DNA from: Isoptericola dokdonensis DS-3
Lineage (GTDB): Bacteria > Actinomycetota > Actinomycetes > Actinomycetales > Cellulomonadaceae
Direction of reading: 5' to 3'
DNA length: 64,000 nucleotides
Assembly: GCF_001636295.1 (NCBI RefSeq)
Contig: NZ_CP014209.1
Span: 1,178,001-1,242,000 of the forward strand
Shown: positions 3,911 through 62,380 of the stretch, piece by piece
Numbering within the stretch: the stretch's first letter is position 1
How the letters are laid out: each line of letters begins with the position of its first letter
The notes under the pieces: model-generated
Told to the model about the DNA's origin: nothing
The model's input: only the letters and a program-made list of their open reading frames with translations
Database searches by the model: none
Position numbers and translations under genes: made by a program

Positions 3911-3940
3911 AGTCGGCGCACACCGGCGCGAGTCAGCGCA
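3911..3940 (+). repeat. Two units of the AGTCAGCG 20-bp repeat after valS
   Basis: AGTCGG at 3911 and AGTCAG at 3931 are exactly 20 bp apart, begin 5 nt after the valS stop codon, and run in the sense direction of valS. The sequence closely resembles the one directly after pepN (38446 onward). Confidence 0.75.
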
Positions 3941-3972
3941 GAGGGCCCCGCTCGGGAACGAGCGGGGCCCTC
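3941..3972. terminator. valS / baeRF bidirectional terminator hairpin
   Basis: Perfect 14-bp stem GAGGGCCCCGCTCG with a GGAA tetraloop, between two convergent genes. It lacks a long T-run, as is common in high-GC actinobacteria. Confidence 0.8.
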
Positions 3973-3992
3973 GTGCGTCCGACGACGTGCGG

Positions 3993-5240
3993 CTACAGGT
4001 TGTGCAGACGGCGTCCGTCACCACTCATCGACACCGCCGACTCGTGCGGCGTCCCGCCGTCCGACCAGCGCAGCGTGGCACCGACGCCGTCCATCAGCTC
4101 GACGGAGCCGGGCGGTGCGAACGTCAGGCCGGCGTCCTGCGCGACCGCGGCCCGCATCAGCGCGGACGCCGCCGGCAGCTCCTGGAGCCCGTCGCCCACC
4201 CCCTGCCCCGTCAGCTCCGCCCGGGCGACGGCGATGTGCATCGGCTCCGGGCCGATCCACAGGTTCCGACCGTCGAGGAGCCCCCCGAACCCGGGGCTGT
4301 CGGCGTCACCCGCGGCCCATCGCCGCAGCGCCGACGCCGCGGCGTCCGCCAGCTCCTCCGACAGCACCAGCTGCTTCACCTGTCCACGGGCGAGCACCTG
4401 GACGACGTCGTCGATGCTCGTCACCGCACCGTCACCGCGTCCGAGCCCCTGCCGCAGCTCGGCGATCACCTGCTCACGGCGACGCTCCCGGAACGAGTCC
4501 AGCGCGTCGGCGAGGGCCTCGGCGAACGCCGCCTGGCGGACGCCCGGGCCCCGACCGCCGCCGGCGACCTCCACGGTCAGGCGTGACGCACCCTGACCGA
4601 GCGCACCCTTGACCAGGTTGACCGCACGCACGTCGCCGCTGATCAGCACGATCTCGGGGCGCTCCTCGGCGACCCGGCGGTCGATCTCCGCCGCCACCGC
4701 CTCGGCGTTGCGGCGCCACGAGTCCTCCGCGCGCGACTCGATCGTCGCGCGCTTAACGGTGGTGCTGCTGGTCTTGGAGACCTCGTCGTGCGGCCCCTCG
4801 AACGCCTCCACGGGTCCGGTGGCGAACCCGTCGGAACCGACCCGGCAGAAGTCGGCCCCCAGGCGGTCCACGGTCACGCACACGGCGTCGACCGTCTCGT
4901 CGGCGGATCGCGCGGCCTGCAGCAGGGACGGCACCTCGTGCCAGAGGCCGGTCGTCACCGCCGGGGGCTCACGCAGGATGCGGTCGACCAGCACGCCCGT
5001 CGAGTCCGCGATGAGGACGCGCCCGTGGGTGCCGTGCACCCGCGTCGGGACGTCGACGGCGTCGTCCAGGTCGCTGAGCACCGTCGCCGGCGCTCCTTGC
5101 TTCTCCAGCGTGCGGCGCACCGCACGCCATCGGTTCGCGACGTCCTTGTCTCCTGCCTCGACCGAACGTGTCGCGTCGAGATACACCGTCGCGAAGGGTC
5201 CGGGATGTCCGACGAGCGGCTTGAGCCATCGGGTGGTCAT
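3993..5240 (-). CDS. baeRF/Rv2629-like protein (release-factor-1 fold)
   Basis: 415 aa, starting MTTRWLKPLVGHPGPFATVYLD. It resembles the actinobacterial Rv2629 group, assigned by comparative studies to bacterial relatives of archaeo-eukaryotic peptide release factor 1 (baeRF) with proposed roles on ribosomes. The middle (TVDRLGADFCRV; RNAEAVAAEIDRRVAEERPEIVLISGD) and the C-terminal third (LVLSEELADAAASALRRWAAG) fit that family. The molecular function is not established. The start is the ATG at 5240; the frame stays open upstream to 5534, but that part is a translated 20-bp repeat array and is excluded. Monocistronic and convergent with valS. Confidence 0.75.
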   Translation of the reverse strand: MTTRWLKPLVGHPGPFATVYLDATRSVEAGDKDVANRWRAVRRTLEKQGAPATVLSDLDDAVDVPTRVHGTHGRVLIADSTGVLVDRILREPPAVTTGLWHEVPSLLQAARSADETVDAVCVTVDRLGADFCRVGSDGFATGPVEAFEGPHDEVSKTSSTTVKRATIESRAEDSWRRNAEAVAAEIDRRVAEERPEIVLISGDVRAVNLVKGALGQGASRLTVEVAGGGRGPGVRQAAFAEALADALDSFRERRREQVIAELRQGLGRGDGAVTSIDDVVQVLARGQVKQLVLSEELADAAASALRRWAAGDADSPGFGGLLDGRNLWIGPEPMHIAVARAELTGQGVGDGLQELPAASALMRAAVAQDAGLTFAPPGSVELMDGVGATLRWSDGGTPHESAVSMSGDGRRLHNL

Positions 5241-5401
5241 GCAGAGGAGCCCCCTTCCGGGTCCGTCATCCGTGCCCCCAAGACTGCGACGGATCACGGC
5301 CGCGCGCCACCGCGCGCCGTGAGCATCCTGCAGGCCGGTGCACGACCTCGACGAAACGGTCACGACCGGCGGACGGGCGTCGTCGGACCGGTCCCGACGT
5401 G

Positions 5402-5513
5402 CGCTGACTCGGCGCCATCCACGCTGACTCGCGCCGATCCACGCTGACTCGGCGCCATCCACGCTGACTCGCGCCGATCCACGCTGACTCGGCGCCATCC
5501 GCGCTGACTCGCG
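5402..5513 (-). repeat. Six-unit 20-bp repeat array 3' of chorismate mutase
   Basis: CTGACT recurs at 5404, 5424, 5444, 5464, 5484 and 5504, exactly every 20 bp (AGTCAG when read on the minus strand). Two variants alternate, one ending GGCGCCATCC and one ending GCGCCGATCC, giving a 40-bp higher-order period. Read in the sense of chorismate mutase, the array lies about 30 nt past its stop codon and upstream of the baeRF gene. The rest of 5241-5538 holds only the baeRF 5' region. Confidence 0.85.
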
Positions 5514-5538
5514 GCAGCGGTGGGGCTCACTCACCCCT

Positions 5539-5916
5539 TCAAGAGTAGGTGTCCAGGGGCGGGGCGTCGCCGAGCCGGCGGCCGGCGGCGTGCTCGGCGG
5601 CGATGCGCTCGTGGTGGCGGATCACCTCGGAGACGATGAAGTTGCGGAACTGCTCGGCGAACTCCGGGTCGAGGCCGGCACCCGACGCGAGGGACTTGAG
5701 ACGGTCGATCTGCTGCCGGTCGCGCTGCGGGTCCGCCGGCGGCATGCCGTTGGTCGCCTTGAGCTCCCCCACCCGGTGGGTCGCGCGGAAGCGCTCGGCG
5801 AGGAGGTGGACGAGTGCGGCGTCGATGTTGTCGATCGTGCCGCGCAGCTCGAGGATCTCGGCCGGCATGGGCCGCCCGCCGGCGGGCACGGGCGACTCGT
5901 CGAAAGGATCTGCCAT
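5539..5916 (-). CDS. Chorismate mutase (AroQ type)
   Basis: 125 aa, a monofunctional all-helical chorismate mutase converting chorismate to prephenate for Phe/Tyr synthesis. The first helix carries [21 protein letters not shown], followed by [11 protein letters not shown] and the R/Q-rich segment [16 protein letters not shown]. The C-terminal helix is [17 protein letters not shown]. The length and order of active-site basic residues fit the AroQ class with a short N-terminal extension. No other aromatic-pathway gene is nearby. It lies 3' of clpX, 77 nt from its stop on the same strand, and may be co-transcribed with it. Confidence 0.88.
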
Positions 5917-5993
5917 GCCCTGATCCTAGGCCCGGGACCGACCTGTCGCGGCGCGGCGACGACCCGTGGACGGCCGGTCCCGGACGAGACCGG

Positions 5994-7262
5994 TCAGGCC
6001 GACTTGCGGTTCCGCACCGGGCCGGAGGTGCGCGGCACGATGGTCGGGTTGACGTTCTCCTCGACGGTCTCGCGGGTCACGACGACCCGTTCGACGTCGT
6101 CGCGGCTCGGCACGTCGAACATGACCTGTTGGAGGACCTCCTCCATGATCGCGCGCAGGCCGCGGGCTCCTGTCCCGCGCAGCAAGGCCTGCTCGGCGAT
6201 GGCGTCGATCGCGTCGTCGTCGAACCCGAGCTCCACACCGTCGATCTCGAACATGCGCTGGTACTGCTTGACGAGGGCGTTGCGCGGCTCGGTGAGGATG
6301 CGCACGAGCGCCTCCCGGTCGAGCGGGGAGACCGCCGCGATGACGGGCAGCCGCCCGATGAACTCGGGGATGAGGCCGTACTTGTGCAGGTCCTCGGGCC
6401 GGACCTCGGCGAAGAGGTCCTCGTCGACCGTGGACTCCATCGGCGCGGAGAACCCGATGCCCCGCTTGCGGGAGCGCGCGGCGATGATGTCGTCCAGGCC
6501 GGCGAACGCCCCCGCCACGATGAACAGCACGTTCGTCGTGTCGATCTGGATGAACTCCTGGTGCGGGTGCTTGCGACCGCCCTGCGGCGGCACGGACGCG
6601 CTGGTGCCCTCGATGATCTTCAGCAGGGCCTGCTGCACGCCCTCGCCCGACACGTCGCGCGTGATCGACGGGTTCTCCGCCTTGCGGGCGACCTTGTCGA
6701 CCTCGTCGATGTAGATGATGCCCGTCTCGGCCTTCTTGACGTCGTAGTCGGCGGCCTGGATGAGCTTGAGCAGGATGTTCTCGACGTCCTCGCCCACGTA
6801 GCCCGCCTCGGTGAGGGCCGTGGCGTCCGCGATGGCGAACGGGACGTTGAGCATCTTCGCGAGCGTCTGCGCCAGGTAGGTCTTGCCGGTGCCCGTGGGC
6901 CCGACGAGCAGGATGTTCGACTTCGCGATCTCGACGCCGTCGTCGTCCTTCGCGGCGGGCGGTGCCGCCTGGACCCGCTTGTAGTGGTTGTAGACGGCGA
7001 CGGCGAGCGCGCGCTTGGCGCCGTCCTGGCCGATGACGTACTGCTCGAGGAACGAGAAGATCTCCCGAGGCTTGGGCAGCTCGGTCAGCCCCAGCTCCGT
7101 GGCCTCGCCGAGCTCCTCCTCGATGATCTCGTTGCAGAGCTCGATGCACTCGTCGCAGATGTACACGGCGGGACCGGCGATGAGCTTCTTGACCTGCTTC
7201 TGGGACTTCCCGCAGAACGAGCACTTGAGCAGGTCTGCACCGTCACCGATTCGAGCCACCAT
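5994..7262 (-). CDS. clpX: ClpX, ATPase subunit of ClpXP protease
   Basis: 422-aa AAA+ unfoldase that recognises tagged substrates and threads them into ClpP. It has the N-terminal zinc-binding domain (CSFCGKSQ at about 14, CDECIELC at about 36), Walker A GPTGTGKT (about 120), Walker [10 protein letters not shown], a pore-loop region and the C-terminal small domain ending in an Arg/Lys-rich tail. The start is [14 protein letters not shown] at 7262; an in-frame start 13 codons upstream would add a sequence not seen in ClpX proteins. It has its own good promoter in the 140-bp gap after clpP2. Confidence 0.97.
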
Positions 7263-7294
7263 GGGCCTCCCTTGTCTCGAGCGCTTCCGCGTCC

Positions 7295-7323
7295 ATTCCA
7301 CACCACCGCGGGCCCGTTGTCAG
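7295..7323 (-). promoter_or_regulatory. clpX promoter
   Basis: On the minus strand, CTGACA (7323-7318) and TGGAAT (7300-7295) are separated by exactly 17 bp, close to the housekeeping-sigma consensus, 33 bp upstream of the clpX start codon. Confidence 0.6.
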
Positions 7324-7402
7324 CAGAGTTCCCCCGGTGTGGCGCGACCCGGGTGCCGCGACGTGCGCGGCGACCCGGGTCGCGTGGTGCTCCACCGCCT
7401 GG

Positions 7403-8128
7403 TCAGCGGGCCAGGTGGGCGGGCTTGCGGGACTCCAGCACCTGGTCGACCAGGCCGTAGTCCTTCGCCTGCGCGGCCGTGAGGATCTTGTCGCGCTCGA
7501 TGTCCTCGCGCACCTGCTCCTCGTCCCGGCCGGTGTGCTGGGCCAGCGTGTGCTCGAGCCACTCGCGCATGCGGATGAGCTCGTTGGCGTGGATCTCGAT
7601 GTCGGACGCCTGCGCGTAGCCGCCACCCTCCATCGCCGGCTGGTGGATGAGCACGCGGGCGTTCGGCAGCGCCAGACGCTTGCCGGGCTGCCCGGCGGCC
7701 AGCAGGACCGCCGCCGCGGACGCGGCCTGGCCCAGGCAGACCGTCTGCACCTGCGGCTTGATGAACTGCATCGTGTCGTACAGGGCGGTCATCGCGGTGA
7801 ACGAGCCGCCCGGGGAGTTGATGTAGATCATGATGTCGCGGTCCGGGTCCTGGGACTCCAGGACCAGCAGCTGCGCCATGATGTCGTCGGCCGACGCGTC
7901 GTCGACCTGGACGCCCATGAAGATGATGCGGTCCTCGAACAGCTTGGTGTACGGGTCCTGGCGCTTGAAGCCGTACGGCGTGCGCTCCTCGAACTGCGGC
8001 AGGACGTACCGCGACGTCGGCGCGGCGGCGCTCGAACCGAACGGCAGCGCGACACCGCCGGGACGACCAGCGGCACCGGCCAGCCGCTGCGCCGTCATGG
8101 CGAACTGGTACTCGGGTGAGTAGCTCAT
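7403..8128 (-). CDS. clpP2: ClpP2, proteolytic subunit of Clp protease
   Basis: 241-aa serine peptidase of family S14. The catalytic triad is visible: Ser137 in [13 protein letters not shown], His162 in [10 protein letters not shown] and Asp213 in [10 protein letters not shown]. In actinobacteria two different ClpP rings pair to make the active tetradecamer, and this is the second gene of the clpP1-clpP2 pair. ATG 8128 has GAGGAG 6 nt upstream. The gap to clpP1 is 40 nt, so the two are co-transcribed. Confidence 0.95.
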
Positions 8129-8168
8129 GGTTCTCCTCGGATGAAGTCTGAAGGGTGGCGTCGGGGCG

Positions 8169-8804
8169 TCAGTCGGCGTTCGTGCCGCCACCGCCCGCGA
8201 CCGCCGAGGCGTTGGTCACGACGTGGTCGACGAAGCCGTACTCCAGCGCCTCGGGAGCGGTGAACCAGGAGTCGCGGTCGTTGTCCTTGAGGATCTTCTC
8301 CAGCGGCTGGCCGGTCTGCTCGGCCGTCAGCTCGGACAGCACCTGCTTCATGTGCATGATGAGCTGCGCGTTGATGCGGACGTCGGTGGCCGTGCCGCCG
8401 ATGCCGCCCGACGGCTGGTGCATCATCACGCGGGCGTGCGGGGTGGCGTAGCGCTTGCCCTTCGCGCCCGAGGAGAGCAGGAACTGGCCCATCGAGGCGG
8501 CCATGCCCATCGCGACGGTGGCGACGTCCGGCTGGATGTACTGCATGGTGTCGTAGATCGCCATGCCGGCCGTGATCGAGCCGCCCGGGGAGTTGATGTA
8601 GAGGTAGATGTCCTTGTTCGGGTCCTCGGCCGCGAGGAGCATCATCTGCGCGCAGATCGCGTTCGCGTTGTCGTCGCGCACCTCCGACCCCAGCCAGATG
8701 ATGCGCTCCTTGAGGAGTCGGTTGTAGATCGAGTCGTTGAGGCCGAGGCCCTGGGCCTCGCCCCGAGCCACAGGTGCGGCCACGTCCGTCCGCAGCATGT
8801 TCAC
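8169..8804 (-). CDS. clpP1: ClpP1, proteolytic subunit of Clp protease
   Basis: 211-aa S14 serine peptidase. The triad is Ser104 in [11 protein letters not shown], His129 in [11 protein letters not shown] and Asp178 in NDRDSW. A GTG at 8804 is taken as the start because GAAGGAG lies 6 nt before it. The ATG two codons later (8798) would have a 12-nt gap to the same Shine-Dalgarno. First gene of the clpP1-clpP2 operon; a ClgR-like box lies about 80 nt upstream. Confidence 0.95.
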
Positions 8805-8881
8805 GTCCGTCTCCTTCGGTTCGCTGTCGCTCGACCCTAACGTGCGCCCCTGCCCCGAAGAGTCCCGGAACGCGCCGGTTT

Positions 8882-8892
8882 CGCTGCTGGCG
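8882..8892. promoter_or_regulatory. Possible ClgR box upstream of clpP1P2
   Basis: CGCTGCTGGCG matches the ClgR core CGC-Y-N-A-N-R-GCG except for the central A, and lies about 80 nt before clpP1. ClgR activates clpP1P2 in other actinobacteria (Streptomyces, Corynebacterium); its use here is inferred. Confidence 0.45.
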
Positions 8893-8928
8893 CACAGGGG
8901 GCGGCGGGCCGCTCCCGGGGACGACGAC

Positions 8929-8960
8929 GGCCCGCGCCCTCCGTGCGGAGGACGCGGGCC
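8929..8960 (-). terminator. tig terminator hairpin
   Basis: A 15-bp stem (one G-T wobble) with a 2-nt centre follows the tig stop codon and precedes the clpP1 promoter region. The two transcripts are therefore probably separate. Confidence 0.7.
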
Positions 8961-8979
8961 ATCGCGGCGACGCGGGGCG

Positions 8980-10377: not shown

Positions 10378-10498
10378 TTCGATGTACTCCAACGTGTCGG
10401 GTGCGTGCGCGCGCGTCGTCCCGGCGGACCGGGGAGATGGTTGCGGCGCGTGATGCTGGGCAGGCCGCCGGTACGACAGGCGTACGGGCAACCCGTCG

Positions 10499-10504: not shown

Positions 10505-10585
10505 CGGCACCGGCCCGTGCGGCCGACAGGGCGCCGGCGGTGGGATGTGCCACTGCCCACGCCGTCCGGGCGGTCCGCCGCCGGG

Positions 10586-20391: not shown

Positions 20392-20854
20392 GGGCGACCA
20401 GGCCAGGCTCGTCGCCTGGAGCCGTGAGATGCGCGCCGTGCACGGCCGCCTGCGCGACGCGTTGTCGGTGACGCAGTCAGCGCTGGAGTCCGGCGAACCC
20501 GGGCAGGCCGCGACCCGTGACCTGCTGCTGTTCTGTCACGGCTTCTGCACGGCGCTGACCGGCCACCACGAGGGCGAGGACCGCGCGCTGTTCCCGGCCG
20601 TCGAGGCCGCGCACCCGGAGCTGCGTGACACGCTGCGCTCGCTGGAGCAGGACCATTCGATGATCGCGCACCTCGTCGCCGCTCTGGAGTCGGCCGTCGC
20701 CCGTGCGGACTCTCCGGACGTGCTCGCCCGGCACCTGGAGGGCGTCGGCGCGCTCATGGAGAACCACTTCCGCTACGAAGAACGCCGGCTGCTCTCGGTG
20801 CTCGACACCCTCGCGCTCGACGCCGATCCTCACGACGTGCTGGGGCCGCTCTGA
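20384..20854 (+). CDS. Hemerythrin-like HHE-domain protein
   Basis: 156 aa with four-helix-bundle iron-ligand motifs: MRAVHGRLRDAL, TALTGHHEGEDRALFPAVEA, LEQDHSMIAHLVAALE and MENHFRYEERRLLSVLD. Proteins of this group bind a di-iron centre and respond to oxygen or nitrosative species; many act as sensors or scavengers. The GTG start at 20384 is chosen because homology begins there (AEGDQARLVAWSREMRAVH). It has no Shine-Dalgarno of its own and may depend on the overlapping 11-codon ORF. The cellulase-type motif CCTAAACGGTTCG follows 25 nt after its stop. Confidence 0.82.
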   Translation: MAEGDQARLVAWSREMRAVHGRLRDALSVTQSALESGEPGQAATRDLLLFCHGFCTALTGHHEGEDRALFPAVEAAHPELRDTLRSLEQDHSMIAHLVAALESAVARADSPDVLARHLEGVGALMENHFRYEERRLLSVLDTLALDADPHDVLGPL

Positions 20855-35872: not shown

Positions 35873-38443
35873 GTGCCCGGAGAGAACCTCACCCGCGCCG
35901 AGGCGATCGAGCGCGCCGCCGTCGTGCACGGCGTCGAGTCGTACGCCATCGACCTCGACCTGACCACCGGCGCGGAGACGTTCTCGTCGACCACCGTCAT
36001 CCGGTTCACCGCCGCCGAGGGCGGCGCCACGTTCCTGGACCTCGTCGCGCCGCACGTGCGCGAGATCGTCCTCAACGGCCGCGCCCTCGACGTCGCGGCG
36101 GTCTTCACGGACTCGCGCATCGCGCTGGCCGACCTCGCCGCCGACAACGAGGTGCGCGTCGTCGCCGACTGCGCCTACATGAACACCGGCGAGGGCCTGC
36201 ACCGGTTCGTCGACCCCGTCGACGGCGAGGTCTACCTCTACACGCAGTTCGAGGTCCCGGACGCCCGCCGCGTCTTCGCGACGTTCGAGCAGCCGGACCT
36301 CAAGGCGCCGTTCCAGCTCTCGGTGACCGCGCCCGCGCGCTGGCACGTCGTGTCCAACCAGCCCACGCCGGAGCCGGTGGCCGCCGTCCACGCGACCGAG
36401 CCCGCCGTCGAGGCAGCCCGCTGGGAGTTCGGTGCCACGCCGCGCATCTCCAGCTACCTCGTGGCGCTCGTCGCCGGGCCCTACGCCGTCGAGCGCGGCG
36501 AGGTCACCTCCGCCGACGGCCGCGTGATCCCGCTGGGCGTGTTCTGCCGGTCGTCGCTGTCGCAGCACCTCGACGCCGAGGCGATCATGGCGACCACCCG
36601 CCAGGGCTTCGCGTTCTACGAGGGGACCTTCGGGGTCCCCTACCCGTTCGACAAGTACGACCAGCTCTTCGTGCCCGAGTACAACATGGGCGCGATGGAG
36701 AACCCGGGCTGCGTCACCTTCACCGAGTCGTACGTGTTCCGCTCCAAGGTGACCGACGCCGTCCGCGAGCGGCGCGTCGTGACGATCCTGCACGAGCTCG
36801 CCCACATGTGGTTCGGCGACCTCGTCACCATGAAGTGGTGGAACGACCTCTGGCTCAACGAGTCGTTCGCGGAGTACGCCTCCACGCTCGCCACGGCCGA
36901 GGCCACCGAGTGGGAGGCCGCCTGGACCACGTTCAACGCCATGGAGAAGACCTGGGCCTACCGCCAGGACCAGCTCCCCTCCACGCACCCGATCGTCGCC
37001 ACCATCGACGACCTGGAGGACGTGCAGGTCAACTTCGACGGCATCACGTACGCCAAGGGCGCCTCCGTGCTCAAGCAGCTCGTCGCCTGGGTCGGTCGTG
37101 AGGAGTTCATCAGCGGCGTCTCCGCGTACTTCCGCAAGCACGCGTGGGGCAACACCGAGCTGAGCGACCTGCTCGTCGAGCTCGAGGCCACCAGCGGCCG
37201 CGACCTGACCGCCTGGTCGAAGATCTGGCTCGAGACCGCCGGCGTGAACACGCTGCGCCCCGAGATCGGCACCGACGCCGACGGCGTCGTGACGTCGTTC
37301 GCGATCACGCAGACCGCGCCCGCGGACCACCCGACCCTGCGCCCGCACCGCCTCGGCATCGGCTTCTACGACGTCGACGCGACCGGCGCCGTCGTCCGCA
37401 CCCGCACGGTGCAGGTCGACGTCGACGGCGAGCGCACCGAGATCGCCGAGCTCGTCGGCACCGAGCGCCCCGGTCTCGTCCTGGTCAACGACGACGACCT
37501 CGCGTACGCGAAGGTCCGCCTCGACGACGCCTCCCTGGCGTTCGCCGTCGAGCACCTCTCCCGCATCGCGGACCCGCTGGCCCGCTCCCTCGTGTGGGGC
37601 TCCGCCTGGGACGCCGTCCGCGACGGCGAGACGCCCGCGTCGTCGTACGTCGATCTCGTGCTCGGCAACATCGCCGCCGAGACGGAGTCGACGACGGTCC
37701 GGACCACCCTCGCGCAGCTCGGGCTCGCCGTGCGCTCCTACGTGGACCCCGCCCGCCGTGCGGCCACCTCCGAGCGCGTCGGCGACACGCTGTGGCAGCT
37801 CGCCCGCGCGGCCGACGCCGGATCGGACCTGCAGCTGCAGCTCGTGAAGTACTTCGCGGCGCTGTCCTCGACGTCCGCCCACGTGGCACCGCTGCGCGGC
37901 CTGCTCGACGGGACCGTCGTGCTCGACGGCCTCGCCGTCGACACCGACCTGCGCTGGGAGCTCCTCGAGGGTCTCGTGCTCCTCGGCGACGCCGACGAGG
38001 CCGAGATCGACGCCGCACAGGCCGCCGACGACACCGCGACCGGCCGCCAGGCCGCCGCCCGGGCGCGCGCCGCGCTCCCGACCGTCGCCGCGAAGGAGCG
38101 CGCGTTCTCGTCCGTCGTCGACGACGCGGACGCGCCCAACGCGATCATCCGCGCCACCGCGTCCGGCTTCGTGCACGTCGTCGACCCGGCCGTGCTGGAG
38201 CCGTTCGCCCAGCGGTACGTCGACGCGCTGCTGCCGATCTGGGAGACGCGCAGCTACCACATCGCCGAGGAGCTCATCGAGGGGCTCTACCCGGCGCCGC
38301 TCGCCTCGGCCGAGCTGCGCGACACCGTCCGCGGCTGGCTCGACGCCCACCCCGACGCGCCGGCCGCCCTGCGCCGCATGGTCGTCGAGGGTCTCGCCGG
38401 CACGGAGCGCGCCCTGGCCGCCCAGGCGGCCGACGCGGCCTGA
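35873..38443 (+). CDS. pepN: Aminopeptidase N (M1 family)
   Basis: 856-aa cytoplasmic zinc aminopeptidase. It has the exopeptidase motif MGAMENPGCVTFTE (about 272), the zinc site HELAHMWFGDLVTMKWW beginning at His307 with the Glu ligand in LWLNESFAEY, and the C-terminal ERAP1-like helical domain. Typical of the actinobacterial enzyme. The GTG start has AAGGGAG 6 nt upstream. The stop codon is followed at once by AGTCAGCG repeats that pair with the repeats of the convergent malQ gene. Confidence 0.95.
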   Translation: MPGENLTRAEAIERAAVVHGVESYAIDLDLTTGAETFSSTTVIRFTAAEGGATFLDLVAPHVREIVLNGRALDVAAVFTDSRIALADLAADNEVRVVADCAYMNTGEGLHRFVDPVDGEVYLYTQFEVPDARRVFATFEQPDLKAPFQLSVTAPARWHVVSNQPTPEPVAAVHATEPAVEAARWEFGATPRISSYLVALVAGPYAVERGEVTSADGRVIPLGVFCRSSLSQHLDAEAIMATTRQGFAFYEGTFGVPYPFDKYDQLFVPEYNMGAMENPGCVTFTESYVFRSKVTDAVRERRVVTILHELAHMWFGDLVTMKWWNDLWLNESFAEYASTLATAEATEWEAAWTTFNAMEKTWAYRQDQLPSTHPIVATIDDLEDVQVNFDGITYAKGASVLKQLVAWVGREEFISGVSAYFRKHAWGNTELSDLLVELEATSGRDLTAWSKIWLETAGVNTLRPEIGTDADGVVTSFAITQTAPADHPTLRPHRLGIGFYDVDATGAVVRTRTVQVDVDGERTEIAELVGTERPGLVLVNDDDLAYAKVRLDDASLAFAVEHLSRIADPLARSLVWGSAWDAVRDGETPASSYVDLVLGNIAAETESTTVRTTLAQLGLAVRSYVDPARRAATSERVGDTLWQLARAADAGSDLQLQLVKYFAALSSTSAHVAPLRGLLDGTVVLDGLAVDTDLRWELLEGLVLLGDADEAEIDAAQAADDTATGRQAAARARAALPTVAAKERAFSSVVDDADAPNAIIRATASGFVHVVDPAVLEPFAQRYVDALLPIWETRSYHIAEELIEGLYPAPLASAELRDTVRGWLDAHPDAPAALRRMVVEGLAGTERALAAQAADAA

Positions 38444-38445: not shown

Positions 38446-38580
38446 AGTCAGCGCTCATCGGCGCGAGTCAGCGCAGGTTCTCAAGGAATCTGCGCTGACT
38501 CGCGCCGTTCTGCGCTGACTGGCGGGAATCTGCGCTGACTCGCGCCGTTCTGCGCTGACTGGCGGGAATCTGCGCCGGCT
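38446..38580. repeat. Face-to-face 20-bp repeat arrays between pepN and malQ
   Basis: AGTCAG at 38446 and 38466 (sense of pepN) face CTGACT at 38495, 38515, 38535, 38555 and a degenerate unit at 38575 (sense of malQ), each at 20-bp steps. The right side alternates two spacer types (CGCGCCGTTC and GGCGGGAATC). Confidence 0.85.
38460..38506. terminator. 17-bp inverted repeat made by opposing repeat units
   Basis: GGCGCGAGTCAGCGCAG (38460-38476) and its exact complement (38490-38506) flank a 13-nt loop between two convergent stop codons, making a strong bidirectional terminator-like hairpin. Confidence 0.75.
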
Positions 38581-38588
38581 CGCGCCGG

Positions 38589-40763
38589 TCAGCGACCCTG
38601 CGCGACGGCGGCGAACAGGGAACGCAGGCGGGCGTTCTCGAAGAGGTCCTCGACCAGCACGGGGTTGCCGGCGGAGTCGCCGAGCGGGACCTTCCAGTTC
38701 GGGTACTCCCGGTCGGTGCCGGGCTGGTTCTGGGAGCGCCGCTCCCCGACGGCGTCGACGAGCTGGACGCCCACGAGCGCGGCCCGCGACCGACGCAGGT
38801 AGCGGTGCAGCGCCTCGACGACCTCCCGCTCGGACGGGTTGTCGCCGACGAGCCCCTGCTCGGCGAGCGCACGCACGGCGGCGGCCCGCTCGGAGCGGGC
38901 GCGGGAGCGCAGCACCTGGGGGTCCTCGGTGAGCAGGCCGAGGCGGTCGCGCAGGTCCACGTGCTCCCCGGCCAGGTACCCGGCGGTGGGGGGCATGTCG
39001 TGGGTGCCGACGGACGCGAGGGTGAGCCGGCGGTAGTCCTGCGGCGCGGTCGGCTGGTCGCCGTCCTGCTCGAACCAGAACACGGACGTGCCGAGCACGC
39101 CGCGGTCGGCGAGGTAGTCCCGCACCCAGGGCTCGAACACCCCGAGGTCCTCGCCGATCACGATCGCGCCGGCCCGGTGCGCCTCCAGGCAGAGGATGCC
39201 GACGAGGGCGTCGTGGTCGTAGCGGACGTACGCACCCTGCGTCGGCGCCATGCCGCGGGGCACCCACCACAGGCGGAACAGGCCGAGGACGTGGTCGACG
39301 CGCAGCGCACCGGCGTGCCGCAGCACGGTGCGGAGCATGTCCCGGTAGGGCGCGTACCCGGCCTGGGCGAGCGCGCGCGGGTTCCACGGCGGCTGCGACC
39401 AGTCCTGGCCCTGCTGGTTGTACATGTCGGGCGGGGCGCCGACGCCGACGCCGGAGGCGAGCACGTCGGCGTTCGCCCACGCGTCCGCACCGTCGGGGTG
39501 CACGCCGACGGCCAGGTCGTGCACGACGCCGATCCGCATCCCGGTGTCGACGGCGGTGCGCTGCGCGTCCCGCTTCTGCTCGTCGAACACCCACTGGAGC
39601 CAGGAGTAGAAGTCGACGCGGTCGGCGAGGCGTTCACGGGCCTGCGCGACGGCGGGCGACGCGGGGTCGGCGAGCTCGGCGGGCCAGCGGCCGCCCCCGA
39701 GCTCCTCGGTGAGGGCGCACCAGGTCGCGAAGTCGCGCAGCCCGGTGCCCTGCTCGGCGACGAACTCCTCGAACGCGGCCTGCCGGGAGGCCCGGCGCGG
39801 CGCCGTGTGCACGACCTCCAGCGCGGCCTTCTTCGCGTCCCAGACGGCGTCCCGGTCGATGGGGCCGTCGTCGGCGGCGAGGTCGCGCACCGGGTCGGAC
39901 GCCCACTCGACGAGCGAGCGGTCGGCGGCGGTCAGGTAGGCGGTCTCGGGGATGTCCTCGACCCGCACGTACAGGGGGCTGCCGAACCGGCGCGACGTCG
40001 GCAGGTAGGGCGAGGGGGTCAGGGGGGTCACGGGCTCCGCCGCGGACAGCGGGTTGACGGCGATGAAGTCCGCCCCGGCCCGGTGCGCGGTGAGCCACGC
40101 GAGGTCGGCGAGGTCGGCGAGGTCGCCCATCCCCCACGACGTGCGGGACCGGACCGAGTAGAGCTGGACGAGCACGCCCCACGCCTGGCGCCGGTCGAGG
40201 TCGGTGCCGAGCTCGAGGCGGCGCGGGGTGACGACGAGCGTCGCGGTCGTCTCGTGCCCCTCGGTGAGGGCGTGCAGGGTGTGCCAGCCGAGCGGCAGGT
40301 CCGCCGGCACGGAGAAGGTGGCGCGGCCCACCTGCCGTCCGTCGACCTCGCGCGGCTCGACGAACGCGTCGACCTGCTCCAGGTCACGGCGGGGCCGGAC
40401 CTGGTGGGGGCGGGCGGTGGGCTCGGCGCCCTCGACCTCCAGCCACACGTGCACGGACGACCCGTGGGTGACGTGCACGGGGACGTCGTGCCGGTCGCCC
40501 TGGCGGACGACGACGGCGGGCGGCAGCACGGTGCGCCACTCTTCGTCGCGGGCACGGCGCAGGCTGTGCGCGACCTCGCCCGGGGTGGACGCCGCGACAC
40601 CGAGCGCCGTGAGGACGGCCACGAGGGTGGCGTCGGCCACGGCGTCGACCCCGCCGCCGTACCGGTGGTGCTCGGTGAGCACGCCGTACGTGGCGGCGAG
40701 CTCGCGCAGGTCGTCGGGCGCGGCGGCGTCGGGCACGGCCTGGGACGTCTCGGGTGTGCTCAC
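38589..40763 (-). CDS. malQ: 4-alpha-glucanotransferase (amylomaltase)
   Basis: 724-aa GH77 enzyme that transfers maltosyl/glucan units in maltodextrin and glycogen metabolism. An actinobacterial N-terminal extension (about 1-160) precedes the barrel: GVLVQLYSVRSRTSWGMGDL, ADFIAVNPLSAAEPV, the nucleophile region ALRVDHVLGLFRLWWVPRG, the acid in IVIGEDLGVFEPWVRDYL and the late TLASVGTHDMPPTAGYLAG. The GTG start giving STPETSQA is chosen because AGGA precedes it; the open frame upstream is unlike the family. Convergent with pepN, divergent from the MscS gene. Confidence 0.95.
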   Translation of the reverse strand: MSTPETSQAVPDAAAPDDLRELAATYGVLTEHHRYGGGVDAVADATLVAVLTALGVAASTPGEVAHSLRRARDEEWRTVLPPAVVVRQGDRHDVPVHVTHGSSVHVWLEVEGAEPTARPHQVRPRRDLEQVDAFVEPREVDGRQVGRATFSVPADLPLGWHTLHALTEGHETTATLVVTPRRLELGTDLDRRQAWGVLVQLYSVRSRTSWGMGDLADLADLAWLTAHRAGADFIAVNPLSAAEPVTPLTPSPYLPTSRRFGSPLYVRVEDIPETAYLTAADRSLVEWASDPVRDLAADDGPIDRDAVWDAKKAALEVVHTAPRRASRQAAFEEFVAEQGTGLRDFATWCALTEELGGGRWPAELADPASPAVAQARERLADRVDFYSWLQWVFDEQKRDAQRTAVDTGMRIGVVHDLAVGVHPDGADAWANADVLASGVGVGAPPDMYNQQGQDWSQPPWNPRALAQAGYAPYRDMLRTVLRHAGALRVDHVLGLFRLWWVPRGMAPTQGAYVRYDHDALVGILCLEAHRAGAIVIGEDLGVFEPWVRDYLADRGVLGTSVFWFEQDGDQPTAPQDYRRLTLASVGTHDMPPTAGYLAGEHVDLRDRLGLLTEDPQVLRSRARSERAAAVRALAEQGLVGDNPSEREVVEALHRYLRRSRAALVGVQLVDAVGERRSQNQPGTDREYPNWKVPLGDSAGNPVLVEDLFENARLRSLFAAVAQGR

Positions 40764-56964: not shown

Positions 56965-56975
56965 CACGAGGGACT

Positions 56976-57005
56976 ACCGGTGGCCGCGGCGACGCGGCCA
57001 CCGGT
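56976..57005 (+). terminator. GH10 terminator
   Basis: 13-bp perfect stem ACCGGTGGCCGCG / CGCGGCCACCGGT with a GCGA (GNRA) tetraloop, 11 nt past the stop. Confidence 0.82.
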
Positions 57006-57066
57006 TCACCCTCCGAATCGCCTCAAGTGGCGCGTGCGCACCCTCCGCAGGGTGGAGGCTGTGCCC

Positions 57067-58929
57067 ATGACCACGCAGAACCTGGGCGACGGCCCCGTGC
57101 CGGCCCGAGGCGACGACGCCTCCGCACGACGTACCCCCTCCCGGCGGCCCGCCGCCCGCACCGCGGCCCGCCGCGCCACCACCACGGTGGCAGCCGGCAC
57201 GGCCGCCACCCTTCTCGCGGCGTCGCTCGTCGCCGCGACGCCCGCCACGGCGGCGCCGCTCGCGGCAGCACCGCTGGCGACGGCCCCCGCCGCGGACTGC
57301 GCGGCGCCCTTCCCCGTCGGCGAGGTGACCAGCGGCGCGCCCGTCACCGGTCTCACGGTGAGCAAGGGCACCACGCCGCAGGAGTTCACCGGTGAGGTCC
57401 TCGGCGTGGTCGCCGACGGCATCGCCCCCGGTCTCGACCTGATCGTCGCCGAGCTCGACTCCCCCGCCATCGAGAAGGCCGGCGGGATCTGGCAGGGCAT
57501 GTCCGGCTCGCCCGTGTACGCGCAGGACGGCCGCCTGATCGGTGCCATCGCCTACGGGCTCGCCGCCGGCAGCTCGCCCGTCGCCGGGATCACGCCTTTC
57601 GGGGACATGGCGCGCTACCTCGGCGGGGCCGGCGGCGGCTCCGCCCCGACCACGGTCAAGGTCGGCTCGACGATGGCGAACCGCATCGCCGCGCAGACCG
57701 ACGCGACGCGCGCGGAGGCCGGTCAGGGCCTGCGCCAGCTCCCGATGCCCGTCGGCGTCGGCGGGATCAGCCTGGCCCGGGCCCAGAAGTCCGCGAAGGA
57801 GCGCGGCACGTCGATGATCGACGCGGACTCCTACCGCATCGGCCGGTCGAGCAGCGCCGCGGCCGCGAGCGTCGACTCCGTCGTCGCGGGCGGGAACGTC
57901 GCGGCCGTCCTGTCCCACGGTGACATCACGATGGCGGGCGTCGGCACCGTGACGTCCGTGTGCGGCTCCCGCATGGTCGCGTTCGGCCACCCCATGAACT
58001 GGTCCGGCCCGGCCCGGATGGGTCTCGCCGCGGCGGACGCCGTGTACGTCCAGGAGGACCCGCTCGGCGTCCCGTTCAAGGTCGCGAACGTCGGCGCGCT
58101 CGGCGGCACGATCACCGACGACCGGCTCGCCGGCATCGCGGGCACGTTCGGCGCGGCACCCGCCGCGGCCACGGTCACCTCGAAGGTGAGCTACCACGGC
58201 ACGTCGCGCACCGGCACGACGAAGGTCCTCAACAAGGGCGTCCTCGGCGACGTCGCGTTCTTCGCGACGAACTCCAACCACGACCGGGTGGCGGACGGCT
58301 GGATCCGCGGGTCCCAGCGGCAGTCCTGGACCATCCGGGCCACCCACGCCGGCAAGCCCTACACGCTGCGCTACGCGGACCGGTACCGCTCGACGTACGA
58401 CATCGGGTGGGAGGGCGTCTTCGACGTCTCGGCCGTCGTCCAGGCGCTGTCCGCGGCGCCCGGCACCACCGTCACCTCCGTGGTCCACGACGTGCGCACC
58501 AGCGACGACATGCGCACCTACCGGGTGGCGAAGATCGAGCAGCGCGTGCAGGGCCGGTGGGTCGACGTCACCGGCAAGCGGGCCAAGGTCAAGGGCGGCA
58601 AGGAGCTGAAGCTGCGCGTCACCCTCGCCGGGTCGGACGGCGTGACCCGCACCTTCCGGCACACGACGAAGGTCCCGAAACGCTACCGCGGTGACACCGG
58701 GTTCGTCGAGGTCGTCGGCGGGAACCTGTTCCAGGGCGAGTTCTTCGAGGTGCGGCCCTCGTTCGAGGCCGTGCGGACGGCGCTGCGCACCAACCAGGGC
58801 AACGACGAGGTCCGCCTCGCCCTGCAGGTCGGAACCGGCCGGACCGCGCTCCAGCGCACCACGACCACGGACCCGCTGCCCCGGGTCGTCGGCGGGTACA
58901 AGTCGGTGCGGGTCAAGGTCACCCGCTAG
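57067..58929 (+). CDS. Secreted SpoIVB/S55-peptidase-like protein
   Basis: 620 aa. A long basic N-region and hydrophobic stretch (GTAATLLAASLVAATPATAA) form the signal peptide. The S55 domain follows: GVVADGIAPGLDLIVAELDS, the nucleophile loop GGIWQGMSGSPVYAQDGRL with Ser148, and GSRMVAFGHPMNWSG with the conserved His. In SpoIVB this serine peptidase cuts sporulation signals; actinobacterial relatives do not sporulate, and their substrates are unknown. Residues 360-620 are an extra domain of unknown fold. ATG 57067 has GGAGG 8 nt upstream. It lies between GH10 and GH74, isolated by a terminator. Confidence 0.83.
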   Translation: MTTQNLGDGPVPARGDDASARRTPSRRPAARTAARRATTTVAAGTAATLLAASLVAATPATAAPLAAAPLATAPAADCAAPFPVGEVTSGAPVTGLTVSKGTTPQEFTGEVLGVVADGIAPGLDLIVAELDSPAIEKAGGIWQGMSGSPVYAQDGRLIGAIAYGLAAGSSPVAGITPFGDMARYLGGAGGGSAPTTVKVGSTMANRIAAQTDATRAEAGQGLRQLPMPVGVGGISLARAQKSAKERGTSMIDADSYRIGRSSSAAAASVDSVVAGGNVAAVLSHGDITMAGVGTVTSVCGSRMVAFGHPMNWSGPARMGLAAADAVYVQEDPLGVPFKVANVGALGGTITDDRLAGIAGTFGAAPAAATVTSKVSYHGTSRTGTTKVLNKGVLGDVAFFATNSNHDRVADGWIRGSQRQSWTIRATHAGKPYTLRYADRYRSTYDIGWEGVFDVSAVVQALSAAPGTTVTSVVHDVRTSDDMRTYRVAKIEQRVQGRWVDVTGKRAKVKGGKELKLRVTLAGSDGVTRTFRHTTKVPKRYRGDTGFVEVVGGNLFQGEFFEVRPSFEAVRTALRTNQGNDEVRLALQVGTGRTALQRTTTTDPLPRVVGGYKSVRVKVTR

Positions 58930-58952
58930 TCCCCCGGGGCGCCGGACCGTCG

Positions 58953-59000
58953 CCTAAACGGTTCGGCGCCCCGCCCTCCCTGTCAGGGTCGAAGCGCTTC
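58953..59000 (+). promoter_or_regulatory. 13-bp motif and palindrome upstream of GH74
   Basis: CCTAAACGGTTCG (58953-58965) followed 25 bp later by GAAGCGCTTC (58991-59000), a perfect CG-centred palindrome related to the CelR/CebR core, 89 bp before the start codon. Confidence 0.6.
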
Positions 59001-59088
59001 ACCTACGGTGGCTCGCGGGCACGGTGCCGTGCCCGCGGGCCACCGTCTGCGTGTGCGCCCCGCCGTCCGCACGAGGGAGTGACCACGG

Positions 59089-61842
59089 ATGAGACGTCGA
59101 CCCACCGTCGCCGCGCTGGCGACGACCGGGCTGTTCGCCGCGGGGGTGGGCGTCGCCGTCGCCCAGACCCCCGCCGCACCGCTCGGCACCATCACCGGCT
59201 CCGCCCCGACGAGCGTCGTGGCGGACTACGCCTGGGGCAACGTGGAGATCGTCGGGGGCGGGTTCGTCCCCGGCATCGTCTACAACGAGGGCGAGCAGGG
59301 ACTCGTCTACGCCCGCACCGACATCGGCGGCGCCTACCGTCTCGACCAGGCCACCGGGCGCTGGGTACCGCTGCTGGACCACGTCGGCTGGGACGACTGG
59401 AGCTACTCCGGCGTGCTGTCGCTCGCCACGGACCCCGTCGACCCCGACAACGTCTACGTCCTGGCCGGCACCTACACGAACTCGTGGGACCCGAACGACG
59501 GCGCCGTGCTGCGCTCGCGGGACCGCGGCGAGACGTGGCAGAGGACCGTGCTGCCGTTCCAGGTCGGCGGGAACATGCCCGGGCGCGGCATGGGTGAGCG
59601 GCTCATGATCGACCCGAACGACCACCGGGTGCTCTACCTGGGCAGCGAGGGCGGCCACGGCCTGTGGCGATCCACGGACTCCGGCGTGACCTGGTCGGAG
59701 GTCACCAGCTTCCCGAACCCCGGCAACTACGTCGCCGACCCCGACGACACCGGCGAGTACGGCACCACCAACCAGGGCGTGCTCTGGACGGTGTTCGACG
59801 AGTCGTCCGGCACGGCGGGCTCCCCCACCCCGACGCTCTACGTCGGTGTCGCGGACAAGGAGAACAACGTCTACCGCTCCACCGACGCCGGGGCCACCTG
59901 GCAGCGGGTCGCCGGTCAGCCCACCGGGTTCCTCCCGCACAAGGCCGAGCTCGCCGACGGGCAGCTCTACGTGACGACGTCGTCCACCGGCGGCCCCTAC
60001 GACGGCGGGCTCGGCGAGGTCTGGCGGCTCGACACCGCGTCGGGCACCTGGACCGACATCTCCCCCGTGCCGTCCGACAGCCCCGACGCCCACTTCGGCT
60101 ACTCGGGCCTGTCCGTCGACCGGCAGGACCCGGACACGCTCGTCGTCACCTCCCAGATGTCGTGGTGGCCGGACAACCAGGTCTACCGGTCGACGGACCG
60201 CGGCGAGACGTGGAAGCCGATCTGGGAGTGGGCCGGGTACCCCGCCCGCACCAAGCACTACACGCTCGACGTCTCCGGCGCCCCCTGGCTGGACTTCGGC
60301 AGCGCGGGCACCGCGCCGGAGGACAGCCCGAAGCTCGGCTGGATGATGGAGTCGTTCGAGATCGACCCGTTCGACTCCGACGCCTTCCTCTACGGCACGG
60401 GCGCGACCGTCTACGGCGGCGAGAACCTCACCGCGTGGGACACCGGCGGGACCGTCGACATCTCCGTCAAGGCGCAGGGCATCGAGGAGACCGCGATCCA
60501 GGACCTCGTCGCCCCGCCCGGCGCCGTCGAGCTGGTCTCCGGGATGTACGACATCGGCGGCTTCGTGCACCACGACATCACGCAGGTGCCGGCGAAGTTC
60601 GCGTACACCCAGCCGTACCACTCGGGCGTCCTGAGCCTCGACGTCGCCTGGAAGAAGCCCGCCACGATGGTGCGCGTCGGCACCGGTGGCGACCAGTACC
60701 TGGGCGTGTCCACGTCGGACGGCGACTCCTGGTGGGCCGGGCAGCAGCCGAGCGGCGTGACCGGGCCGGGCAACGTCGCGATGTCCGCCGACGGCGCCAC
60801 GATCGTGTGGAGCCCGGCGGGCACGGGCGTGCACCGCTCGACCACGCTCGGGTCGTCGTGGACCGCGTCCACCGGCGTCCCCGCGGGTGCCACCGTGCGG
60901 TCGGACAAGGAGGACCCGCAGGCCTTCTACGCGTTCTCCGGCGGCACGTTCTACACGTCGCGCGACGGCGGCGCGTCGTTCACGGCGTCCGCCGCGACGG
61001 GGCTGCCCGCCGCGGGCAGGCACCACGTCGAGACCGTCCCGGGCAAGGCCGGGCACGTCTGGGTCGCCGGCGGCGAGACCGACGACGTGTACGGCCTGTG
61101 GCGCTCGACCGACTACGGCGCGACGTTCACCCCGGTGGCGGGCGTGGAGGAGGGCGACACGATCGGCTTCGGCAAGGCCGCCGACGGTCACGACCACCCG
61201 GCGGTGTACACGTCGTCGAAGATCGACGGGGTACGCGGCATCTTCCGGTCCGACGACGCCGGGGCGACCTGGGTGCGGATCAACGACGACGCCCACCAGT
61301 ACGCCTGGACGGGAGCCGCCATCACCGGCGACCCGGACGTCTACGGCCGGGTGTACGTCGGGACCAACGGTCGCGGGGTGATCGTCGGCGAGTTCGACGG
61401 CCTCCAGCCGACGCCCGGACCCACCCCGTCGGCGACCCCGACGGTCTCCCCCGACCCGTCACCGAGCCCGTCGACCACGCCCGACCCGTCACCGAGCCCG
61501 TCCACGTCGCCCACGACGCCGCCGGCGGGCAGCTGCGCGGCCACGTACACGGTCGTCGGCCGGTGGCCGGGCGGCTTCCAGGGCGAGGCGACGGTGCGGA
61601 ACACCGGCGCGGCGCCCCTGTCGTCGTGGACGCTGACCTGGGCGTTCACCGGCGGGGAGACGCTCGTGCAGGGCTGGGGCGGCACCGTGTCCCAGACCGG
61701 CACCACCGCGACCGCCGCCGCGCCCGGCTGGCAGACCGACCTCGCCCCCGGCGCGTCGGCCACCGTCGGGTTCATCGGGTCCGGCACGCCCGGCCCCGTG
61801 ACCGACCTGACCGCGAACGGTGAGGCCTGCACCACCACCTGA
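59089..61842 (+). CDS. Secreted GH74 xyloglucanase with CBM2
   Basis: 917 aa. The signal peptide runs to about 30 (LFAAGVGVAVAQTP). Tandem beta-propellers typical of GH74 contain repeated YRSTDAGATW, YRSTDRGETW, WRSTDYGATF segments. The catalytic acids are expected at Asp78 (ARTDIGGAYRLD) and Asp431 (DPFDSDAFLYGTG). A Pro/Ser/Thr linker (about 770-815) precedes a CBM2 from Cys816 (RWPGGFQGEATVRNTG). The enzyme cuts xyloglucan, exposing cellulose to the other island enzymes. GAGGGAG lies about 10 nt before the ATG. Confidence 0.95.
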   Translation: MRRRPTVAALATTGLFAAGVGVAVAQTPAAPLGTITGSAPTSVVADYAWGNVEIVGGGFVPGIVYNEGEQGLVYARTDIGGAYRLDQATGRWVPLLDHVGWDDWSYSGVLSLATDPVDPDNVYVLAGTYTNSWDPNDGAVLRSRDRGETWQRTVLPFQVGGNMPGRGMGERLMIDPNDHRVLYLGSEGGHGLWRSTDSGVTWSEVTSFPNPGNYVADPDDTGEYGTTNQGVLWTVFDESSGTAGSPTPTLYVGVADKENNVYRSTDAGATWQRVAGQPTGFLPHKAELADGQLYVTTSSTGGPYDGGLGEVWRLDTASGTWTDISPVPSDSPDAHFGYSGLSVDRQDPDTLVVTSQMSWWPDNQVYRSTDRGETWKPIWEWAGYPARTKHYTLDVSGAPWLDFGSAGTAPEDSPKLGWMMESFEIDPFDSDAFLYGTGATVYGGENLTAWDTGGTVDISVKAQGIEETAIQDLVAPPGAVELVSGMYDIGGFVHHDITQVPAKFAYTQPYHSGVLSLDVAWKKPATMVRVGTGGDQYLGVSTSDGDSWWAGQQPSGVTGPGNVAMSADGATIVWSPAGTGVHRSTTLGSSWTASTGVPAGATVRSDKEDPQAFYAFSGGTFYTSRDGGASFTASAATGLPAAGRHHVETVPGKAGHVWVAGGETDDVYGLWRSTDYGATFTPVAGVEEGDTIGFGKAADGHDHPAVYTSSKIDGVRGIFRSDDAGATWVRINDDAHQYAWTGAAITGDPDVYGRVYVGTNGRGVIVGEFDGLQPTPGPTPSATPTVSPDPSPSPSTTPDPSPSPSTSPTTPPAGSCAATYTVVGRWPGGFQGEATVRNTGAAPLSSWTLTWAFTGGETLVQGWGGTVSQTGTTATAAAPGWQTDLAPGASATVGFIGSGTPGPVTDLTANGEACTTT

Positions 61843-61863
61843 GCGCCACCCGGCGCACGACCA

Positions 61864-61901
61864 CCGACGGCGCAGGCGGCTCGTCCCGCCTGCGCCGTCG
61901 G
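61864..61901 (+). terminator. GH74 terminator
   Basis: 16-bp perfect stem CCGACGGCGCAGGCGG / CCGCCTGCGCCGTCGG with a 6-nt loop, 21 nt past the stop. Confidence 0.85.
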
Positions 61902-61914
61902 CGTGCACAGCGCC

Positions 61915-62134
61915 AGTCAGCGCAAGATCCGCCCAGTCAGCGCAGGATCCGCCCAGTCAGCGCAGGATCCGCCCTGTCAGCGCAGGATCCGCCCAGTCAG
62001 CGCAGGATCCGCCCAGTCAGCACAGCCCGGCGCGAGTCAGCGTGAACTTCGTTCAGTCAGCGCACGACGGCGCGAGTCAGCGCAGGATTCGCCCAGTCAG
62101 CATGAACTTCGCTCAGTCAGCGACCGTCGTCGGG
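61915..62134 (+). repeat. Eleven-unit 20-bp repeat array after GH74
   Basis: AGTCAG occurs at 61915, 61935, 61955, 61975 (TGTCAG), 61995, 62015, 62035, 62055, 62075, 62095 and 62115, an unbroken 20-bp period. The 12-nt spacers are of three types: CA(G/A)GATCCGCCC (units 1-6), TGAACTTCG(T/C)TC, and CACGACGGCGCG-like. No gene is visible in 61843-62389. Confidence 0.9.
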
Positions 62135-62286
62135 CCAGTTCTGCGGATGCGGTGAGCGAGTTGGCTCGAGCTCCGTACCGCAACTGCAGCAGCTCGCCGG
62201 TGTGCGCAGCAGGGCGGATCTCCCGAGGTCGGACCACGCCCCGCCGTCGTGCGCTGACTGAACGAAGTTCACGCTGACTCGCGCCG
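62028..62286. repeat. 45-bp perfect inverted repeat joining the opposed arrays
   Basis: 62028-62072 is the exact reverse complement of 62242-62286. The arms are repeat units of the left and right arrays. The intervening 169 bp holds the end of the left array and about 120 bp of unique sequence with no gene. Confidence 0.85.
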
Positions 62287-62380
62287 ATGAGCGCTGACTG
62301 AACGAAGTTCACGCTGACTCGCGCCCTCGTGCGCTGACTGAACGAGTTTCACGCTGACTCGCGTCAGTGAGTGCTGACTC
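62252..62380 (-). repeat. Seven-unit 20-bp repeat array after the thioesterase
   Basis: CTGACT at 62254, 62274, 62294, 62314, 62334, 62354 and 62374, exact 20-bp steps, reading AGTCAG in the sense of the thioesterase gene and reaching within about 10 nt of its stop codon. Spacers alternate GAACGAAGTTCA and CGCGCC-type. Confidence 0.88.

Follow-up and report, generated by a model that had tools for sequence, protein, structure and literature searches.

The closest described parallel to the arrays considered here is the REP/RAYT system. Papers on it describe repeats that are extragenic and lie near 3′ ends or between convergent genes, with a cognate gene that is itself flanked by the repeat (PMC2817692, PMC3733652) and a repeat dialect that is matched to the enzyme (PMC2817692, PMC3733652, PMC8266576). 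A second point of comparison is the AbiEi family, members of which recognize repeats of about 23 bp that are arranged in tandem or inverted (PMC7319586). This study concerns a 64,000-nucleotide stretch of the Isoptericola dokdonensis DS-3 chromosome (the window, G000:C1:1178001-1242000), where gene ends carry arrays of an 8-bp core, AGTCAGCG, repeated at a 20-bp step. On sequence grounds, these arrays are probably the cognate DNA sites of a homing-endonuclease-like gene, selfish or domesticated, that lies outside the window. A nuclease with matching DNA sites scattered over its genome suggests a pairing that was previously undescribed. An open-access literature search found nothing describing these arrays or the pairing of gene and array, in line with the first-pass annotation of this DNA, which knew of no family with such a structure.

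The window contains 28 copies of AGTCAGCG where 3.15 would be expected, and none of 100 shuffles reached that count. All but one of the copies (27 of 28) stand within arrays at the gene ends listed below, spaced at multiples of 20 bp within each array. The whole genome, a single contig of 3,826,972 bp (3.83 Mb), holds 348 exact AGTCAGCG-N12-AGTCAGCG pairs (170 forward, 178 reverse), and the reversed-pattern control gave 0 on either strand. Genome-wide array density was taken from this pair count, and not from the 864-kb G000 sample used elsewhere, which consists of the window and 40 stretches, evenly spaced except for a few shifted to take in known arrays, with genes predicted by a codon-usage finder. 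The 20-bp-periodic gene-end arrays of the first-pass annotation are therefore real, and its alternating spacers were seen again, with two types alternating in the chorismate mutase, malQ and thioesterase arrays. It had also listed an array after valS, which is present but contains one exact core only, and had placed no array inside a gene, which is true of the window arrays although a lone core does fall within a predicted gene. The features in question are as follows; the labels livF, livK, valS, GH74 and DnaA box come from inspection, the first-pass annotation or recall rather than from a family search.

3911..3938, plus strand: two-unit array after valS, with the variant AGTCGGCG at 3911-3918 and AGTCAGCG at 3931-3938
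5402..5509, minus strand: six-unit array downstream of the chorismate mutase gene (minus strand, 5539-5868)
20475..20482, plus strand: lone AGTCAGCG in a predicted gene, outside any array
35873..38443, plus strand: pepN (M1 aminopeptidase)
38446..38473, plus strand: two-unit array immediately downstream of the stop codon of pepN (38443), forming the left half of an in-facing pair
38493..38560, minus strand: four exact units downstream of malQ, forming the right half of the in-facing pair, with degenerate repeat on to about 38594
38589..40763, minus strand: malQ (GH77), convergent partner of pepN
61915..62122, plus strand: eight exact units and three variants after the gene for a 917-aa CBM2/BNR protein (GH74 in the first-pass annotation), left half of an in-facing pair
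62252..62379, minus strand: six exact units and one variant downstream of the 4HBT thioesterase gene (minus strand, 62390-62887), forming the right half of the in-facing pair

A hairpin terminator-like sequence follows the valS array at about 3941-3974. Where spacers of two types alternate (5402-5509, 38485-38594 and 62251-62379), a 40-bp higher-order period results.

The candidate partner gene was found elsewhere in the same genome, together with two relatives:

G000:C1:2766379-2767437: array-flanked nuclease gene, 352 aa, outside the window
G000:C1:1655318-1656169: further relative, bounded by its own palindromes
G000:C1:1523479-1524237: further relative, bounded by its own palindromes

Flanking repeats are common in this gene family. 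A de novo scan of 81 nuclease loci, seven of them duplicates, found a repeated 8-mer in the flanks beyond shuffles at 65 (58 of the 74 distinct loci) and on both sides of the gene at 61 (54 of 74), compared with 0 of 18 control genes; one control gene had any flanking repeat at all, a GAGTCAG-type word. Orthologs from related species are not independent in such locus counts. Out of 5 variable positions, left and right dialects share 4.35 when they belong to one locus and 2.32 when they come from different loci (p 0.0002, 52 of 77 loci), as read with a generic motif that misreads some non-GAG dialects; the 77-locus analyses contain three duplicates (L225, L226 and L231). The elementary form, seen in other members of the family, is a palindrome of about 70 bp in which two half-sites face two at steps of about 19-21 bp, one copy standing upstream of the gene and one at or just after the stop codon. 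The second G000 gene (L182) is an example, and the third is likewise bounded by its own palindromes, as judged by eye. In L196, L198 and L213 the downstream palindrome overlaps the nuclease gene, its first half-site containing the TAG stop codon. Around the first G000 gene the word is AGTCAGCG, which is also dispersed, with 97 pairs at 24 places in the 864-kb sample.

The core differs between species, both at gene ends and around the nuclease gene. Among 18 Isoptericola genomes the exact AGTCAGCG pair is confined to G000 and G008. After pepN, sister species carry GAGTCAG with variable ends (G013), GAGGTAGGCA (G001, G005), GAGGTAGAAC (G004), GAGGTAGCGC (G015-G017) and GAGATAGAGA or GAGATAGAGC (G003, G009-G011), at a step of 20 bp, or mostly 22 bp for GAGATAG. 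The Isoptericola ortholog adjoining a livF-like gene is array-flanked in 11 species, and its flanking dialect is AGTCAGCG in G000 and G008, GAGTCAGG in G013, GAGGTAGGC in G005 and G001, GAGGTAGTGC in G007, GAGGTAGTAC in G010 and GAGGTAGCGC in G004 and G015-G017. These dialects match a second locus or sample wherever one was compared, which excludes G007 and, for G013, covers GAGTCAG only. Two dialects and two array-flanked genes occur in G010. In G003 there are likewise two dialects, GAGGTAGTTC/TCC and GAGATAGAGC, with fragmentary gene matches at the livF and pepN loci.

Gene and arrays also occur together. At the livF locus 11 genomes have a full-length gene match, G003, G011 and G012 a partial or frame-broken one, and G002, G006 and G009 none; the locus itself was not found in G014. 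G009 has its nuclease gene at the pepN locus instead. Between pepN and malQ, G009-G011 carry arrays with the additional gene, and G000, G001, G005, G013 and G015-G017 carry facing arrays without it; these are different species, not alleles. All 15 array-rich Isoptericola genomes have the gene or an apparent relic of it at the livF or pepN locus, compared with none of the three array-poor ones, in one of which one locus was not found. As read from these comparisons, the arrays and the gene are linked in that the gene sits within its own arrays, the same dialect is scattered elsewhere, the dialect is species-specific and tracks the gene, the presence of gene and array coincides, and apparent gene relics lie beside arrays.

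A neutral origin would account for some of these observations. If the gene regulated itself via its flanking repeats and the dispersed arrays were tandem expansions of operator-like sequence, one would see alternating spacer types and variable unit numbers resembling local slippage, and spacers hardly common to different places, as is the case. We regard this explanation as very unlikely, since neutral slippage does not create one dialect at many unlinked gene ends or shift a dialect in concert between species.

The N-terminal two thirds of the nuclease protein are predicted to be AbiEi-like, and the C-terminal domain to have the I-Bth0305I/Vsr fold, an assignment made by VIA-align re-examination of structure matches. 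Three of the proteins are matched by PADLOC AbiEi models (7.9e-9 to 1.3e-11). When the protein alignment was searched against PDB sequences, the one chain returned, at E 0.23, was not usable. Four residues proposed for the active site (D262, E273, D275 and K279), a proposal made without one-to-one matching to a solved structure, do not vary in 24 of 24 proteins. Relatives are widespread, in 189 of 220 family genomes at E 1e-10 and 213 of 297 order genomes at E 1e-15. Downstream of the G000 array gene lies a livF-like ABC ATPase gene on the opposite strand, and such a change of strand at the following gene is seen at 43 of 51 nuclease loci. A co-directional AbiEii-type toxin gene in operon is therefore absent at the G000 array gene and at those 43 loci, AbiEii having not been searched for at the other eight.

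The upstream regions of nuclease genes (for example L101 and L171-L250) share a further motif. TCCACAG, often as TTGTCCACAG, occurs in the sense direction within 450 bp before the first aligned codon at 53 of 77 loci (1.6% expected), and antisense at four of 77. It frequently stands 56-59 nt before a start codon. The motif resembles the actinobacterial DnaA box, and so suggests that expression of the nuclease gene may be linked to replication.

The likeness to AbiEi raises the possibility that the arrays serve control rather than spread. They could be operators and decoys that titrate a harmful nuclease, a form of antitoxin-like control or addiction, and the protein may also act against foreign DNA. 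Self-regulation through 23-bp repeats, tandem or inverted, is known from AbiEi relatives, many loci have repeats upstream of the gene, and the PADLOC matches point the same way. We consider titration improbable, however. It leaves unexplained both the matching copy right after the stop codon and the placement of dispersed copies between convergent genes, and the opposite-strand neighbors mean that most loci have no co-directional AbiEii-like partner following the gene.

Dispersed arrays are concentrated between convergent genes. The 864-kb sample holds 153 cores, 9 inside predicted genes and 144 intergenic; 107 of the latter are in convergent regions, which make up 15% of intergenic bases, 36 are in tandem regions (19 sense, 17 antisense) and 1 is in a divergent region. 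Among the intergenic regions of at least 40 bp in G000, G005 and G017, arrays occupy 26 of the 128 that are convergent, 15 of the 494 that are tandem and 0 of the 241 that are divergent. Regions of these genomes that hold both directions show them facing inward (>>> <<<) in 21 of 22 cases, and 19 further regions are one-directional. The true layout of the arrays is this in-facing one. The first core lies no more than 30 bp from the stop codon in 15 of 35 "sense" arrays, single cores included, and no more than 100 bp away in 25.

The first-pass annotation read each core as following the sense of the preceding gene. This rule is largely automatic because arrays concentrate between convergent genes, where either direction is the sense of one of them. 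The sense rule follows from this placement, and an independent sense orientation is not supported, as tandem regions of the three genomes hold 12 sense and 11 antisense arrays. A genome scan of the kind that annotation had itself set as a test thus found the gene-end enrichment but not the orientation bias.

That annotation also pictured a long array as a string of identical stem-loops. A reading as tandem stem-loops in 3′ untranslated regions, sense to each gene and serving termination, protection or protein binding, is consistent with the gene-end placement, and with the G009 sample, outside the three-genome count, where all three arrays are sense. Beyond this there is little to recommend it, and we give it next to no weight. 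The tandem contexts of the three genomes have no sense bias. The one-directional four-unit array left of the nuclease gene at L101 has no significant fold (z-score −0.84), and in a second one-directional stretch (G011, L066; z −3.9) the most stable part is a separate hairpin after, and outside, the units. The bases of the proposed GCGC-GAGTCA-GCGC hairpin are not conserved in dialects such as GAGATAGAGA and GAGGTAGGCA. An Rfam scan of the window matched two tRNAs and nothing else. A DNA-binding array, another of the roles the annotation had proposed, fits best.

Facing arrays do fold. For the pair after pepN the z-score is −9.7, a strong fold with a long perfect stem at its center, and the four-half-site palindrome has a z-score of −10.2. 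Facing hairpins could serve the host as bidirectional terminators or insulators, with the AbiEi-like protein as a roadblock to read-through and its nuclease domain vestigial or regulatory. The preference for convergent over divergent regions and the strong pepN/malQ hairpin agree with this. So does the recurrence of the array at one gene end when 19 ortholog groups of the pepN neighborhood are compared over the 18 genomes. A 3′-end array is found at malQ in 12 of 18 despite the change of dialect, compared with two of nine genomes at the thioesterase and none in the remaining 16 groups; pepN has one in 11 of 18 by script, or 12 once G004, recognized by eye, is added, again in differing dialects. 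Nevertheless, we think a terminator role unlikely. The one-directional L101 array does not fold, six of 18 species lack the malQ array, some having an ordinary hairpin there by eye, and the proposed active-site residues are invariant. Terminators would also have no need to change dialect in step with a nuclease gene.

Against this background, the system is like REP/RAYT in its layout and unlike it in its parts. It shares the many copies outside genes, close to 3′ ends and in convergent regions (26 convergent, 15 tandem and 0 divergent regions), the presence of the repeat on either side of the enzyme gene (at 54 of 74 distinct loci) and the co-variation of dialect. However, it is found in actinomycetes, an AbiEi-like protein with a Vsr-type nuclease takes the place of the HUH Y1 transposase, and the unit is a half-site that is not palindromic and recurs in tandem every 19-22 bp, rather than a stem-loop with a GTAG-type head. 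The REP/RAYT unit is a stem-loop of 20-40 nt, unlike the one-directional four-unit array with its z-score of −0.84. A RAYT was considered as the partner and rejected, as Y1_Tnp (PF01797) was found in 0 of 18 Isoptericola genomes, with the control detected in five of 14 known genomes. Because there is no Y1 transposase, the unit is not a stem-loop and the enzyme is different, we do not file the arrays and gene under REP/RAYT.

Other known systems share some elements. DNA uptake sequences in Neisseria and Pasteurellaceae are short species dialects often found at gene ends; the arrays here differ in their tandem units, set about 20 bp apart at a fixed step, and in their link to a nuclease gene that they flank. 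Vsr-type homing endonucleases such as I-Bth0305I differ in that there is no tie to an intron or intein here, an AbiEi-like part is carried, and the sites are scattered arrays that remain intact beside the gene. The N-terminal part of the nuclease protein resembles AbiEi and Rv2827c, for which binding to inverted pairs of a 23-bp repeat is described (PMC7319586). AbiE type IV systems lack the extra nuclease domain, the genome-wide sites and the opposite-strand next gene seen in 43 of 51 loci.

How might such a system work? We infer that the arrays are spread and kept alike in a REP/RAYT-like or homing-like manner by unrelated parts, and the nuclease gene is presumably selfish. The AbiEi-like part would bind half-sites (cGAGNYAGNNN in Isoptericola), and the nuclease part would nick array DNA or cut it. 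With other arrays as templates, repair would hold the copies to one dialect and occasionally copy the nuclease gene into another array. Arrays would persist between convergent genes, where they do the least harm. If the specificity of the protein drifted, the arrays of the genome would change along with it. That the protein binds the arrays is very likely; that it cuts them, so that repair spreads and homogenizes the copies, has about an even chance. The full form of this idea is a nuclease-dialect drive, in which a gene with an antitoxin-type DNA reader owns a species word and rewrites its sites in concert when its specificity shifts. We put it forward as a possibility, slightly short of an even one.

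Several observations weigh against a homing-like gene with cognate arrays. Whole arrays or palindromes remain beside the nuclease gene, whereas in classic homing the inserted gene interrupts the site and so stops the enzyme. Orthologs lie at fixed loci across species and look vertically inherited rather than currently mobile. Distant arrays share four of 75 distinct spacers, against 1.1 expected and a maximum of four in 300 column shuffles, which is only weakly above expectation and gives no sign of recent array copying. G003 and G012 retain arrays despite only broken gene matches at the examined loci, and the second dialect of G004 (GAGGTAGAAC) has no array-flanked partner among the loci examined there. 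No significant flanking repeat was found at 16 of 81 nuclease loci, and GAGATCGAC, the word of the second G000 gene, has 0 dispersed pairs in 864 kb. Protein and dialect distances correlate (Mantel r 0.74, n 11), a result confounded with descent, and the nuclease part (0.73) gives no weaker a correlation than the AbiEi-like part (0.65). On the structural side, no Foldseek match falls under E 0.001, the AbiEi match is modest (6y8q, root-mean-square deviation 6.4), and Pfam AbiEi matches L066 below its cut-off and L064 not at all.

Arrays of this kind extend beyond the genus. A general pattern, CGAGNYAG-N12-14-CGAGNYAG, which detects 20-22 bp steps and CGAGNYAG cores only, was abundant in 15 of 18 Isoptericola genomes among 221 of the family (53-291 pairs, controls 0-9) and in 17 of 17 genomes of genus g6 (12-251 pairs). 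It was also abundant in G173, G196, G197 and G215, and the other genomes had 0-9 pairs. G215 (genus g24) has 240 pairs, but 80 in the reversed control, and another repeat family may be there. Outside the family, CGAGTTCG pairs were found in G283 (f3; 79), G357 (f13; 18), G466 (f13; 11) and G205 (f1; 14) with controls of 0; seven further genomes gave none in six and two in G445. CGAGTTCG flanks the gene on both sides in G357. The link is less complete in the others, and this too counts against the pairing: the gene examined in G466 lacks CGAGTTCG, and those in G283 and G205 have it on one side only.

Exact arrays beyond the genus, at seven viral-contig and five genome-contig loci, were set aside. 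By eye they are single-place tandem repeats of one 10- or 20-bp unit, and the DNA examined around these 12 loci held no nuclease relative at E 1e-4. Arrays of 20-bp step in L031 (Frankia) and L032 (Actinomadura) may be related. Within the window, a PF18844 protein (bacterial archaeo-eukaryotic release factor family 2, 4.5e-42) is encoded at 3993-5081 on the minus strand, convergent with valS.

The array-gene pairing links a widespread, little-described actinomycete protein family to repeats that change their core in concert at many sites. It offers a natural series of matched nuclease-site pairs, which is useful for learning how specificity evolves. The pairing also provides a second, unrelated case for judging whether REP persistence is better explained by selfish drive or by host benefit. 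If the nuclease-dialect drive is true, actinomycetes would have independently invented a REP/RAYT-like system from wholly different parts.

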